From Terricaulis silvestris (lineage in GTDB: Bacteria > Pseudomonadota > Alphaproteobacteria > Caulobacterales > Aquidulcibacteraceae), in contig NZ_CP047045.1 in the NCBI RefSeq assembly GCF_009792355.1, forward strand, positions 1,240,001-1,304,000: 64,000 bases of DNA, read 5' to 3'. The position numbers and the translations under genes were made by a program. Of the stretch, positions 9,939 to 49,890 are shown in pieces. The first letter of the stretch is position 1, and each line of letters starts with the position of its first letter. A model generated the notes under the pieces. It made no database searches and was not told where the DNA came from. It saw nothing but the letters and a program-made list of their open reading frames with translations.

Positions 9939-10262
9939 TTAGAACGGCATCTTGAAGCCGGGCAGAATCCCTAGACCGCCGCCCAAGCCCTTCATCTCTT
10001 CGTTTTGCGCGTCGTCGAGTTTGCGGCGGGCGTCGTCGTGGGCGGCTTTGATCAGGTCTTCGACGATTTCGCGCTCGTCTTCCTTCATCAGCGATGGATC
10101 GATCGAGAGCGACAGCAGCGCGTTCTTGCCGGAGATGCGAAGCTTCACCATACCGCCGCCGGCGGTGCCTTCGACTTCCATGGCTTCGAGCTTTTTCTGC
10201 GCCTCGTTGATCTTGGCCTGCATGGCCTGCGCCTGGCGCATGATCTGCGAGATGTCTTTCAT
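9939..10262 (-). CDS. ybaB: YbaB/EbfC nucleoid-associated protein
   Basis: The 107-residue protein has the family pattern: an N-terminal helix rich in Gln and Lys (IMRQAQAMQAKINEAQKKLE), the VEGTAGGGMVKLRISG strands and a PSLMKEDEREIVEDLIKAA helix. YbaB/EbfC forms dimers that bind DNA non-specifically or with weak preference. Its ATG overlaps the dnaX stop as ATGA, which is the conserved arrangement in many bacteria. Confidence 0.95.
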   Translation of the reverse strand: MKDISQIMRQAQAMQAKINEAQKKLEAMEVEGTAGGGMVKLRISGKNALLSLSIDPSLMKEDEREIVEDLIKAAHDDARRKLDDAQNEEMKGLGGGLGILPGFKMPF

Positions 10263-12052
10263 CTGTCGGCTTCCTTTTTGCGCGCCGGGGAGGGCGCGGG
10301 CGCATCGCGTTGCGGGAAGGGTGCAACATCGCCGCCGCCGTCTTCAACCGGTTGCGTCACCTTGGCGATTTCCGCGCCGGGAAAATGCTTCAGCGCTTCA
10401 GCAACGAAAGGCTGGCGCTTCAGCTCTTCAAGCGCTCTTGCTTCCTCGCGTTTGCGGCGGTCGGCGAGGCTTTCGATAGGCGCGGTGGATTCGGTGGTGG
10501 AGCGGATGGTCCACTCGAACGGCGTGCGCTCTTCGAGGAACGCTTTGAGCTGGCGCACCAGATCGCGCGGCTGATCGGGATGCGCGATGTAGACGACCTC
10601 GCCCGCCGGCGAGAAGCGCGTGACTTTGAGGCGTTCCAGCGCGAGTTCGAGCTCGATATCGCGTTCCTCTGCGACGGCCTTCGTGACGTCCTCGAACGTT
10701 TGGAACGGAGAATCGACTGTATGCGCGGGAGGCTGCGCTTGGACCGCCGGCGTCTCGCCGGCGGTTTTGTTTGCTACAGGCTGCGCCGGCGCAGCGTTCA
10801 CGGTGGGTGACTTTTGCGCTGACGGCGCTGAACCCGCCGGCGAGACGCCGGCGGTCCAAGACGCGCCATCGCGCAGCAGGCGCGCGGCTTCCTCTGGCGG
10901 CGGCAGCGATTGCGCGGCGCACAAGCGCACCATCGCCATTTCAACAGCGGCGATGGGGTCTGGGGCCTTGCCGGCTTCTTCTAGCGCCTTCAGCAGCATC
11001 TGCCACAAGCGCGAAAGTTGCGCGGGCGAGAGCTGTTCGGCCAAGCCACGCACGCGCTCGACCCAATCGGCCCCACCAATGATGCGGGCATCGGCGCCGA
11101 GCGCTTGAGCGCGCGCGGCTTCGTGACCGACATCGAGGAGATCGCGGAGAATGAGCGTTGGGTCGGCGCCGCTGTCGTATTGGTTGCGTACGTCCGTGAT
11201 CGCGGCCTTGGCGTCCCCTTTGGCGATGGCTTCGAACACGTCGAGCACGCGGCCGCGATCGGCGAGGCCGAGCATGTCGCGCACATCAGCGGCGGAGACT
11301 GATGCGCCGGGCTTTTGCACCAAAGCTTGATCGAGCAAGGAGAGGCCGTCGCGGGCCGAGCCTTCGGCCGCGCGGGCAATCAGAGCGAGCGCATCGGTAT
11401 CGACCTTTACGCCTTCCTTCGCGCAAATGCTGGCGAGGTGTTCGGCGAGCCGCTCGCTATCGATGCGCTTCAGATCGAAGCGTTGGCAGCGCGAGAGCAC
11501 CGTCACCGGCACTTTGCGGATTTCCGTCGTCGCGAAGATGAACTTCACGTGCGGCGGCGGCTCTTCCAGCGTCTTCAGCAAGCCGTTGAAGGCTTGCGTC
11601 GAGAGCATGTGCACTTCGTCGATGATGTAGACTTTGTAGCGCGCCATCACGGGCGCGTAGCGGACGCTGTCCAGGATTTCGCGAATGTCGTTGATGCCGG
11701 TGCGGGAGGCGGCATCCATCTCGAACACGTCGGGATGGCGGCTTTCCATGATGGCCTGGCAGTTCTCGCCCATCGGGTCGAGTTCAACACTCGGGCCATT
11801 GATGGCGCCGGACTTGTAGTTGAGCGCGCGGGCGAGCAGGCGGGCGGTGGTGGTTTTGCCGACGCCGCGGACGCCGGTGAGCATGGTGGCGTGCGGGATG
11901 CGGCCGAGCGCGAAGGAATTGGCGATGGTGCGGACCATCGCTTCCTGGCCGATCAGGTCGGCGAACGTCTTTGGGCGATATTTCCGAGCCAGAACGACAT
12001 AGCCGCCGTCCGGTTCGTCGCCGAAAAGGCCTGGAGAATTGGATTCGCTCAC
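10259..12052 (-). CDS. dnaX: DNA polymerase III subunit gamma/tau
   Basis: The 597-residue clamp-loader ATPase has a Walker A (GVRGVGKTT), Walker B (IIDEVHML) and SRC motif (VLSRCQRFDL). The zinc module that normally follows Walker A is degenerate: only NCQAI remains of the expected four cysteines. After about residue 370 comes a variable Ala/Pro-rich linker, then the C-terminal tau region that contacts the polymerase. Two 26-bp inverted copies of a palindromic element lie inside the linker (10739-10764 and 10834-10859) and are translated as TAGETPAVQ and WTAGVSPAG. ybaB follows with a 4-bp overlap. I see no obvious slippery A-run for frameshifting. Confidence 0.97.
   Translation of the reverse strand: MSESNSPGLFGDEPDGGYVVLARKYRPKTFADLIGQEAMVRTIANSFALGRIPHATMLTGVRGVGKTTTARLLARALNYKSGAINGPSVELDPMGENCQAIMESRHPDVFEMDAASRTGINDIREILDSVRYAPVMARYKVYIIDEVHMLSTQAFNGLLKTLEEPPPHVKFIFATTEIRKVPVTVLSRCQRFDLKRIDSERLAEHLASICAKEGVKVDTDALALIARAAEGSARDGLSLLDQALVQKPGASVSAADVRDMLGLADRGRVLDVFEAIAKGDAKAAITDVRNQYDSGADPTLILRDLLDVGHEAARAQALGADARIIGGADWVERVRGLAEQLSPAQLSRLWQMLLKALEEAGKAPDPIAAVEMAMVRLCAAQSLPPPEEAARLLRDGASWTAGVSPAGSAPSAQKSPTVNAAPAQPVANKTAGETPAVQAQPPAHTVDSPFQTFEDVTKAVAEERDIELELALERLKVTRFSPAGEVVYIAHPDQPRDLVRQLKAFLEERTPFEWTIRSTTESTAPIESLADRRKREEARALEELKRQPFVAEALKHFPGAEIAKVTQPVEDGGGDVAPFPQRDAPAPSPARKKEADR
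10739..10859. repeat. Inverted pair of 26-bp palindromic elements inside dnaX
   Basis: TTGGACCGCCGGCGTCTCGC begins the copy at 10739-10764; its exact reverse complement occupies 10834-10859, with 69 bp between. Each copy is itself a hairpin: CCGCCGGCG, a 3-base loop, CGCCGGCGG. Both lie in frame in the poorly conserved linker of DnaX and so add short Ala/Pro/Gly/Thr peptides. The structure resembles REP-type elements that have entered a tolerant coding region. Confidence 0.8.
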
Positions 12053-41158: not shown

Positions 41159-42523
41159 ATGGGCCAATTCGTTTTCAAACTGCCGGATGTGGGCGAAGGT
41201 ACGGCTGAGGCCGAGATCGTCGCGTGGCATGTACGCGTGGGCGATGTCGTCAAGGAAGACGCGCCGCTCGTGGACGTGATGACGGATAAGGCGACGGTGG
41301 AGATGACCGCGCCCGTTTCCGGCAAAATCGTGTCACTTCACGGCGAGCCTGGCGACATGGCGCCCGTCGGCGGCCAGATCGTGGTGTTCGAGACCGATGG
41401 CGAAGAGGTTTCCTCCCCCGCAAGCGGGGGAGCAAAAGGAAACGGCGCCGAGCCTAAGCCACGCATCCGCGCACAAGCAGGCGCGACGTGGTCCGAGGAC
41501 GAAGTGAAAGCGGCGATGCAAGGCGGCGCTCCGCAGGCGAAGGCCGTGCCGGCGGCGGCAATGCCGGGTGCTGCGCAGAAAGCTAAGGCGCCCGCGCCGT
41601 CGCAAGCTGTCGCTAAGCCGGCGGGGCGTGATGCAACAGTGCGCGAATGGTCGGAGGCGCAAGCGTCGCCGGCCGTGCGCGCGCGTGCGCGGAAGCTGGG
41701 CCTCGAGCTTGGCCAAGTGCGCGGCACAGGCCCGGAGGGCCGCATTACGCACGAAGATCTAGACGCGGTGCTTGTGCCTGCCGCCGGCTCGCGCCGCGGC
41801 GGTTCGGCTCTGACCGAGAAGAACGGCGTGGAGCCGGTGAAGATTATCGGCCTGCGGCGCAAGATCGCGGAGAAGATGCAGGACGCCAAGCGCCGCATTC
41901 CGCACTTTGCGTACGTCGAAGAATGCGATCTCACCGAGCTTGAAGAACTCCGCGCGCACCTGAACGCCACCAAGCGCAGCGATCAGCCGAAGCTGACGCT
42001 ATTGCCGTTCCTGATGCGGGCGCTGGTGCTCTCGCTGCCGGATTTCCCGCAGATCAATGCGCGCTTCGATGACGAACAGGGAATCGTCTATCGCCACGAC
42101 AACGTCGATATTGGCATCGCCACGCAAACAGATAACGGCCTGATCGTGCCGGTGGTGTGCCACGCAGAAGCGCGCGACGTGTGGGATAGCGCCACCGAAG
42201 TCTCGCGCCTCGCCGCCGCGGTGCGCGCCAATACGGCGACGAAGGAAGAGTTGTCCGGCTCCACTATCACCATCACCTCGCTCGGCGCGTTGGGCGGCAT
42301 CGTTACGACGCCAGTGATCAATCACCCGGAAGTGGCGATCATTGGCGTCAACAAGCTAGTTGAGCGCCCGGTGGTGAAGAACGGCGCGATCGTCATTCGT
42401 AAGATGATGAACCTCAGCTCGTCGTTCGATCACCGCGTGGTCGATGGCTACGACGCAGCCGCGTTCATTCAGCGCGTCAAAGGCATGCTGGAGCATCCGG
42501 CGGCCTTGTTTATTGATCGGTAA
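41159..42523 (+). CDS. bkdB: Dihydrolipoamide acyltransferase (E2) of the branched-chain complex
   Basis: The 454-residue E2 has one lipoyl domain with the lipoylated lysine in VMTDKATVEM, a peripheral-subunit-binding domain (ASPAVRARARKLGLELGQV, GPEGRITHEDLDAVL) and the catalytic domain ending in SFDHRVVDGYDAAAF. An 8-bp palindrome (41413-41432) is embedded in the first linker and translated as SSPASGGAK. No E3 (lipoamide dehydrogenase) gene follows, so E3 must be encoded elsewhere. AGGGA precedes ATG 41159. Confidence 0.94.
   Translation: MGQFVFKLPDVGEGTAEAEIVAWHVRVGDVVKEDAPLVDVMTDKATVEMTAPVSGKIVSLHGEPGDMAPVGGQIVVFETDGEEVSSPASGGAKGNGAEPKPRIRAQAGATWSEDEVKAAMQGGAPQAKAVPAAAMPGAAQKAKAPAPSQAVAKPAGRDATVREWSEAQASPAVRARARKLGLELGQVRGTGPEGRITHEDLDAVLVPAAGSRRGGSALTEKNGVEPVKIIGLRRKIAEKMQDAKRRIPHFAYVEECDLTELEELRAHLNATKRSDQPKLTLLPFLMRALVLSLPDFPQINARFDDEQGIVYRHDNVDIGIATQTDNGLIVPVVCHAEARDVWDSATEVSRLAAAVRANTATKEELSGSTITITSLGALGGIVTTPVINHPEVAIIGVNKLVERPVVKNGAIVIRKMMNLSSSFDHRVVDGYDAAAFIQRVKGMLEHPAALFIDR
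41413..41432. repeat. REP-like palindrome inside bkdB
   Basis: CTCCCCCG (41413-41420), loop CAAG, CGGGGGAG (41425-41432) form a perfect hairpin in frame within the linker between the lipoyl domain and the E3/E1-binding domain. It contributes a Ser/Pro/Ala/Gly peptide. The form is like short intergenic palindromes common in alphaproteobacteria. Confidence 0.65.
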
Positions 42524-48419: not shown

Positions 48420-48860
48420 ATGACTCTCCCCGAAACCCAAACGCTCTATTTCGAAGATGTCCGCGTCGGCATGCGCGAGACGTACTCGAAGCACGTCAAA
48501 GCCTCGGATGTCGTCGGATTCGCCGAGATCAGCGGCGACCGCAACCCGATCCATCTGAGTGAACACTTCGCCGCCAAAACGCCCTTCGGCGGCCGCATCG
48601 CGCACGGGCTCTACACGGCGAGCTTGATCTCCGCCGTCATCGGCACGCGCATGCCGGGGCCGGGCGCGATCTACATTTCGCAGACGCTGCGCTTTCTGGC
48701 GCCAGTGCGGATCGGCGACACGGTCGAGGCCACGGTTGAGATCGTCGAGCTGGTGGAGAAGGGGCGGCGCGGTAAGCTGAAGTGCGAATGCCGCGTTGGC
48801 GACACGGTCGTGCTTGAAGGCGAGGCTGAGGTGAAAATCCCAACGCGGCCCATCCCCTAG
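48420..48860 (+). CDS. MaoC-like (R)-specific enoyl-CoA hydratase
   Basis: The 146-residue hot-dog-fold protein carries the hydratase motif SGDRNPIHLSEHFA with the Asp/His catalytic pair, followed by GGRIAHGLYTASLIS. It resembles PhaJ-type hydratases that make (R)-3-hydroxyacyl-CoA. It starts 9 bp after tadA; the next base after its stop belongs to a palindromic repeat. Confidence 0.88.
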   Translation: MTLPETQTLYFEDVRVGMRETYSKHVKASDVVGFAEISGDRNPIHLSEHFAAKTPFGGRIAHGLYTASLISAVIGTRMPGPGAIYISQTLRFLAPVRIGDTVEATVEIVELVEKGRRGKLKCECRVGDTVVLEGEAEVKIPTRPIP

Positions 48861-48962
48861 AGTCATTCCAGACACGCGAAGCGTGATCTGGAATCTAGGG
48901 CAAACGTTCAGCTCTACGATCCCTGGATTCCAGATCGGCCTTCGGCCGTCTGGAATGACTCT
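48859..48962. repeat. Intergenic palindromic element A
   Basis: AGAGTCATTCCAGA (48859-48872) and TCTGGAATGACTCT (48949-48962) are a perfect 14-bp inverted repeat. Inside lie two small hairpins (CACGCGAAGCGTG and CGGCCTTCGGCCG) and a 23-bp core, 48900-48922, that matches element B with three differences. The outer arms overlap both flanking stop codons (MaoC and ribF), so the element exactly fills the convergent gap. Confidence 0.85.
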
Positions 48963-49890
48963 ATGGGGTGATCAGCGCGCGCCTTGCGTTGATGACATCC
49001 TGCGTCATCTGCCGCCGCATTGCGTTCACATCGTCGAACTTGGCCTCGTCGCGCAGGAACGCCGCGAGTTCAACTTCGATGGTCTTGCCGTAAAGATCGC
49101 CGCTGAAATCGAACAGATGCGCCTCTAGCACAGGCTCTGGCAGCGCCCCGACTGTCGGATTCACGCCGACGCTCGCCGCGCCGGGCAACAGTACGCCATC
49201 GCCGGTATCGACGCGAACTGCGTAGACGCCAAGCCGGGGGCGCACATACGCGCCAAGCGCCACGTTTGCCGTGGGAAAGCCGAAGCCGCGACCGCGCTGG
49301 AAGCCGCGCAGCACTTCGCCCTCGATTGCCCAGGGCCGCGTCAGCATATCAGCCGCGCGCGGCATGTCGCCCGCAGCGATGGCCTCGCGGATCGCGGAGG
49401 AGGACACTTTTGCGTTGCCATCTGTCACTGGTGCAACGGCTCCGACCGTAAAGCCGAGCTGTTGGCCGAGCGCCGCAAGGCCTTGAGCGTCGCCCATCCG
49501 GCCTCTGCCAAAGCGAAAATCGGCGCCGACGCTCACGTGGGACGCGCCGAGCGTACCTTTCAGAACTTTCTCCGCAAACTCCGCATCGGTCGAGTCAGCA
49601 ACCGCTGCATCAAAACCAATTTCAAACACTTCGCTTACGCCAACATCGCCAAGCGCTCGCGCGCGTTGGCGATTGCTCTGCAGACGAAAGGGCGGTGTGT
49701 CCGGCTTGAAGAAGCGGCGCGGGTGCGGTTCGAATACGGCGGCTCCGAGCGCAACGCCGTACTCTTCCGCAACAGCACGCGCCGACTCGATTACGGCCTG
49801 ATGTCCGCGATGCACGCCGTCGAAATTGCCGAGCGCGATCGCCGCGCCGAGCGCGTCTGCTGGAACTAAAGTTTCTGACGGATCGTCCAT
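48961..49890 (-). CDS. ribF: Bifunctional riboflavin kinase/FMN adenylyltransferase
   Basis: The 309-residue enzyme has the N-terminal nucleotidyltransferase motif ALGNFDGVHRGHQAV and the C-terminal kinase motif GRGFGFPTANV. It makes FMN and FAD from riboflavin, serving the flavoenzymes such as the acyl-CoA dehydrogenases here. ATG 49890 is preferred to upstream in-frame starts, which would add an unusual basic leader. Confidence 0.94.
   Translation of the reverse strand: MDDPSETLVPADALGAAIALGNFDGVHRGHQAVIESARAVAEEYGVALGAAVFEPHPRRFFKPDTPPFRLQSNRQRARALGDVGVSEVFEIGFDAAVADSTDAEFAEKVLKGTLGASHVSVGADFRFGRGRMGDAQGLAALGQQLGFTVGAVAPVTDGNAKVSSSAIREAIAAGDMPRAADMLTRPWAIEGEVLRGFQRGRGFGFPTANVALGAYVRPRLGVYAVRVDTGDGVLLPGAASVGVNPTVGALPEPVLEAHLFDFSGDLYGKTIEVELAAFLRDEAKFDDVNAMRRQMTQDVINARRALITP

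Follow-up and report, generated by a model that had tools for sequence, protein, structure and literature searches.

Two palindromes lie in inverted orientation, and in frame, inside the gene for the tau/gamma subunit of DNA polymerase III in Terricaulis silvestris. The question raised by this locus is what these palindromes are, how they came to be part of a replication protein, and whether they serve the gene that carries them. The window, by which we mean the whole 64-kb stretch of DNA analysed here, contains one such pair, in the DnaX linker. The first-pass annotation had described two exact 26-bp copies, inverted and 69 bp apart, that are translated as part of the protein, and both the positions and the two predicted peptides were borne out. 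The 26-mer, TTGGACCGCCGGCGTCTCGCCGGCGG, is present without mismatch at 10739-10764 (+) and 10834-10859 (-), with a spacing of 69 nt, and the dnaX frame (10259-12052, -) translates the two arms as WTAGVSPAG and TAGETPAVQ. The inverted arms reach 30 nt (10738-10767 and 10831-10860, 97% match) and correspond to DnaX residues about 398-438, which, by the Pfam borders, belong to the linker that joins domain III to the C-terminal domain. Each arm is a hairpin on its own, with self-complementary halves around TCT (CCGCCGGCG-TCT-CGCCGGCGG), and the pair folds into one stem (-90 kcal/mol, z -9.7 relative to shuffles), as the annotation had also proposed. The features of the locus are as follows.

10259..12052, - strand: dnaX, DNA polymerase III tau/gamma subunit, 597 aa, the host gene (open reading frame; Pfam DNA_pol3_delta2, DNA_pol3_gamma3 and DUF3646).
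10703..10876, - strand: DnaX linker, aa 393-450, from domain III to the C-terminal domain (Pfam borders 252-392 and 451-565).
10738..10767, + strand: REP arm 2 in the dnaX direction, read as TAGETPAVQ, with the 26-mer at 10739-10764 (0 mismatches to the upstream arm of RAYT unit L276, described below).
10831..10860, - strand: REP arm 1 in the dnaX direction, read as WTAGVSPAG, with the 26-mer at 10834-10859 (exact inverted 26-mer).
10768..10830, - strand: interior between the arms, 63 nt (from the arm borders).
10787..10807, - strand: interior segment encoding PTVNAAP (from the linker alignment).

The interior bears on how the pair should be described. The linker alignment shows a segment similar to PTVNAAP in several congeneric linkers in which arms cannot be recognised. 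The dnaX pair may accordingly be a native sequence flanked by two separate REPs rather than one inserted REPIN, and the PTVNAAP segment itself may either belong to the original linker or be an ancient component of the insert.

The 24-nt core of the arms occurs at two sites in the 64-kb window, both in dnaX, and shuffles of the window predict 0.01. We looked for further copies in the 3.86-Mb genome (a single contig) by pattern, covariance-model and protein searches. The 26-mer matched at 10 sites when up to 3 mismatches were allowed, and its 23-nt core at 27 sites; reversed patterns, used as controls, gave none for either. A covariance model trained on ten short copies gave 74 strand matches (E ≤ 0.01), or about 38 elements. 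A chance origin was ruled out by these reversed patterns and by the shuffles, both of the 24-nt core and of codon-shuffled linkers (see below). The majority of sites are inverted pairs, with a 23-nt arm, a variable interior and a second arm of 23 or 24 nt, and the total length is 60-62 nt or roughly 70-100 nt. Most copies are extragenic and abut stop codons, often between convergent genes, and about nine lie in genes or near gene ends. Short GC-rich palindromes in many copies, mostly as inverted pairs and mainly outside genes, are the marks of REPs and REPINs, and the dnaX pair is a member of a genome-wide family of this kind.

Three other marks of known REP systems were absent. No Y1_Tnp domain, the signature of the RAYT transposases that accompany REPs and REPINs, was found in the T. 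silvestris genome. The arms end in TATGG, CTTGG and other sequences with no GTAG-like terminal tag, and they do not fit the CGTC superfamily as described in PMC3733652, which is marked by a terminal CGTC (or TGTC, CCTC) tag and by A-T as the first and second pairs of the stem. Searches of Rfam gave only weak matches below the gathering score, to unrelated miRNA and sRNA families, and these followed the stem itself. Copies of the family were present in all 30 congeners searched, with 1 to 124 strand matches each, and the 23-mer is also found in records named Reyranella, Gammaproteobacteria, Acidobacteriota and others.

Two other repeats were seen along the way. A second palindromic dimer in the window, at 48844-48977 (GAGTCATTCCAGACACGCGAAGCGTGATCTGGAAT...ATTCCAGATCGGCCTTCGGCCGTCTGGAATGACTC), resembles the CGTC-type REP dimers of Alphaproteobacteria. 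Elsewhere in the genome, at 1653746 and 1943001 (L041 and L042), two REP copies have a common extra upstream sequence, aagcgttgtccgg...cgctgtcccATGG, which is perhaps another repeat with the REP nested in it.

About eight copies besides that in dnaX are in genes or near gene ends in this genome. Four are in-frame elements at well-defined places in the encoded proteins: in the interdomain linker of mutL, directly ahead of the SNLPYN motif in rsmA/ksgA, ahead of LLIGPEGG in rsmE, and between the domains of a LysM-M23 peptidase. Less certain are a copy near the end of an mtaB-like radical-SAM gene, a single arm in the C-terminal tail of a DUF817 protein, and a pair at the same relative position in two related proteins that have no Pfam family. 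In these last two (68149-68247 and 3113335-3113410; L051 and L045), each palindromic pair is of a different subfamily. Among the short copies, three of the four that are 60 nt long, a multiple of three, are in genes, compared to one of the 15 that are 61-62 nt long (hypergeometric p about 0.016).

We compared the four best-defined sites across the genus, using relatives that are mostly MAGs; those for ksgA and rsmE were found with a joined two-protein query. Arms with up to 4 mismatches were detected in 18 of 25 dnaX linkers, including this one, and in 14 of 5000 codon-shuffled controls; the remaining seven linkers scored no arm at this threshold. Several species that retain arm 2 have an arm 1 that is eroded or of another type, and the linkers of G003, G013, G014, G019 and G023 contain arms of other subfamilies. 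Several congeneric linkers do not have the peptide encoded here, nor do those of other families in the order. The ksgA segment bounded by the DAL motif and SNLPYN measures 72-78 nt in most congeners, compared to 120 nt in T. silvestris. This genome (G000) and G003, G005 and G007 have arms there, read in the GPPA frame, and G022 has an arm of another subfamily, read in the WTAG frame. The rsmE site is about 120 nt long when empty, as in most congeners, and 171 nt here. The net gains at ksgA (+45 nt) and rsmE (+51 nt) are both smaller than a 60-nt element, indicating that neighbouring codons were lost during or after insertion. In about ten genomes the mutL linker has arms, which belong to subfamily A, B or C, and an unrelated palindrome, TCCCCCGTTTACGGGGGA, occupies the same mutL site in G005, G009 and G019. 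Likewise, the unrelated palindrome CCCCCTCTCCGCAAGGGAGAGGGGG is found at the rsmE site in G024 and G044.

Reading frames are broken near the palindrome sites of dnaX, mutL and ksgA in G015, and of ksgA in G023; these breaks may be real frameshifts or may have arisen where hairpins were misassembled from long reads. We also found an exact palindrome, CTCCCCCGCAAGCGGGGGAG, at 41413-41432 in the window, that resembles those inside mutL of several congeners. One similar match with 3 mismatches is within chance for the composition of the window; the match at 41413-41432 is exact.

We removed the insert columns, built a tree of the four proteins and counted the fewest state changes that it allows: 10 for dnaX, 6 for ksgA, 9 for rsmE and 11 for mutL (5, 5, 6 and 8, respectively, if only the presence of any palindrome is scored), with states assigned by hand and some remnants being judgement calls. 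The share of occupied sites rose with the copy number of the genome (rho 0.88, 29 genomes, uncorrected for kinship), and the relationship did not reach significance with phylogenetically independent pairs. As judged from these comparisons, elements of different REP subfamilies, or unrelated palindromes, have independently occupied the same sites in different species.

These comparisons bear on the simplest alternative, that an element entered dnaX once, long ago, and has since been inherited vertically and eroded unevenly, with no later insertion or homogenisation. The spread of subfamily A arms across the genus and the degenerate WSAG-like remnants in some element-poor species are what such a history would leave. 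However, the different arm subfamilies in five of the linkers and the unrelated palindromes that occupy the mutL and rsmE sites in other species argue for more than one event, as does the sequence of the second arm. Its 24 nt are identical in G000, G001, G009, G012 and G018, five lineages whose identities at 4-fold sites are only 0.53-0.70 and which share no identical eight-codon window among the 367 in the catalytic part of dnaX. We consider a single insertion unlikely, although it is the strongest of the competing accounts. The identity of the arm is not proof of selection, because the five species were chosen for having an exact arm. In other congeners it is lost or altered. Both the exact arms and the losses elsewhere are consistent with repeated insertion or with local refreshing. 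Gene conversion that simply draws on a large pool of genomic copies is doubtful in three species: the exact GCGCC arm of G020 occurs once in its genome, at dnaX, and exact copies of the species' own arm elsewhere number one in G018 and two in G009.

What might have moved the elements is indicated by the relatives. A protein-family search found no RAYT (PF01797) in the T. silvestris genome, and the copies here are therefore orphans. PF01797 is present in 16 of the 30 congeners. The proteins match NCBIfam REP_Tyr_transpos with scores just under or over the cut-off, and their best solved relative is TnpArep (4er8). We read 20 RAYT loci; at most of them the gene is closely flanked on each side by inverted arms. 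The type of arm tracks the RAYT clade, with ends of TATGG, CTTGG, TCTGG, CCCGG or GTTGG; several of the RAYTs examined had no arms of the types searched. Units with an HVH motif and clade-specific arms, the organisation of a REPtron, were found in sister species (L266, L271, L274, L276-L279, L284 and L285). The arms of two of them match those in dnaX linkers. In G001, the RAYT unit near rsmE (L276) has an upstream arm that is the dnaX 26-mer with 0 mismatches and a downstream arm with 1 mismatch. In G003, the arms of unit L284 (CTTGG...CTTCCAGCC) are of the subfamily found in the dnaX linkers of G003, G013, G019 and G023.

The surroundings of rsmE recur among these loci. RAYT genes lie about 0.2-2 kb from rsmE in five congeners (L276, L277, L278, L279 and L305), and four RAYTs near rsmE, which have CTTGG arms, group in a single clade (support 0.99). 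An in-frame REP pair is present in rsmE itself in several species. This clade of RAYTs seems to have been established near rsmE for a long time.

It could be that the family consists of ordinary miniature inverted-repeat elements mobilised by some other transposase, and that the association with RAYTs is coincidental. Many intergenic copies have TA at both outer edges, a possible target duplication, and the genome studied here has no RAYT. Against this, copies of other subfamilies have no edge TA, and coincidence would have to account for arms at both ends of RAYT genes whose type follows the RAYT clade. We regard this account as improbable.

A function for the stem in dnaX DNA or mRNA, for example in setting the tau/gamma ratio through frameshifting or pausing, is somewhat less probable again. 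The pair does fold far better than shuffled sequences, and the conservation of the second arm described above could be taken as a sign of constraint, but the five species that show it were picked for an exact arm. Arm 1 has decayed or belongs to another type in several species that retain arm 2, and seven of the 25 linkers scored no arm at up to 4 mismatches. A scan of dnaX found no in-frame slippery heptamer near the linker; the only one is at codon 25, far from it. The effect on the tau/gamma ratio suggested by the first-pass annotation is thus not supported, since most congeners have not kept two well-matched arms and the linker has no slippery heptamer near it. The short form of DnaX in Caulobacter is made by partial proteolysis by ClpXP, which stops near this region. 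An insert close to such a stop could in principle matter.

That the arms encode a conserved, functional DnaX peptide repeated by chance can be dismissed: AGETPAVQ does recur in several DnaX linkers, but the peptide is missing from other families of the order, and the copies throughout the genome, where the same DNA is read in other frames (YGPPAPRR in ksgA), refute this reading.

We therefore favor the interpretation, to which we assign a probability of about 80%, that the DnaX linker contains a REPIN-like element of a type copied by RAYTs that is now an orphan in this genome. The pair would consist of two inverted REP hairpins of the subfamily with CTTGGACC...GGTCCAAG ends, and it would have entered the linker in an ancestor within the genus. 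The insert would have been tolerated because the linker is flexible, the arms are free of stop codons in the frame used, and the length keeps the frame. The REP units were most likely copied by a RAYT, an HUH tyrosine transposase, that recognised the arm as single-stranded DNA; the RAYT of the CTTGG clade would bind and cut the CTTGGACCGCCGGCGTCTCGCCGGC arm. The RAYT was most likely lost from this genome, leaving orphan copies under erosion, and the same process probably placed the elements in mutL, ksgA, rsmE and other genes. We infer that a RAYT catalyses the copying and that the inserted peptides have no function of their own. The suggestion that REP-type elements had colonised a part of the protein that tolerates them, as Rickettsia palindromic elements do, is supported by the genome-wide repeats, by the relatives whose linkers do not have the peptide, and by the RAYT genes of sister species that are bracketed by the same arm.

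A broader proposal, which we make tentatively and at somewhat less than even odds, is that permissive sites in DnaX, MutL, RsmA (KsgA) and RsmE are, throughout the genus, shared docking sites for several unrelated palindromic mobile families, each of which would enter them independently. The occupied DNA would then be refreshed by new insertion or conversion and not merely inherited, and the sequence of these linkers and loops, in proteins of replication, repair and rRNA modification, would be largely written by REP-type elements.

Selfish DNA appears to have added peptides to core proteins repeatedly in this genus. How palindromes enter protein-coding genes has been a standing question since the Rickettsia elements, and it becomes testable here because the relatives hold occupied sites, empty sites and RAYT genes with the same arms. 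The DnaX and MutL linkers, the RsmA loop by the NLPY motif and the RsmE loop are natural maps of insertion tolerance. There is also a caution for annotation, in that linker peptides such as WTAGVSPAG and AGETPAVQ can be encoded by REP DNA rather than being protein motifs.

The elements are most similar to the REPINs and REP-RAYT systems described previously (Bertels and Rainey 2011, PMC3116915; Nunvar et al. 2010, PMC2817692), which likewise have short inverted palindromes, mostly at gene ends, and RAYT genes bracketed by the same palindromes. They differ in that some copies are in frame inside core genes, the ends are TATGG, CTTGG, TCTGG, CCCGG or GTTGG according to clade and not GTAG, and the genome studied here is free of RAYTs. 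GTAG and CGTC REPs and REP dimers have been reported inside open reading frames, many of them in genes for DNA synthesis and repair, and an intragenic REP is at about the same site of recB in two species of Xanthomonas (PMC3733652). The elements here are similarly placed but have neither terminal tag, and in this genus several genes have been resettled at the same codon sites by multiple subfamilies and unrelated palindromes. CGTC repeats predominate in Alphaproteobacteria, and the same study found no RAYT flanked by them (PMC3733652). With neither a GTAG nor a CGTC tag, the present arms leave that gap unfilled; they are RAYT-bracketed alphaproteobacterial REPs with other ends. The likeness to Rickettsia palindromic elements (reviewed in PMC10969869) is in habit only: both are in-frame palindromes in housekeeping proteins that add some tens of residues, whereas here the elements flank a RAYT gene in sister species. 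REPs inside genes and RAYT-REP units were already known; what is new is the repeated resettlement of the same codon sites within one genus.
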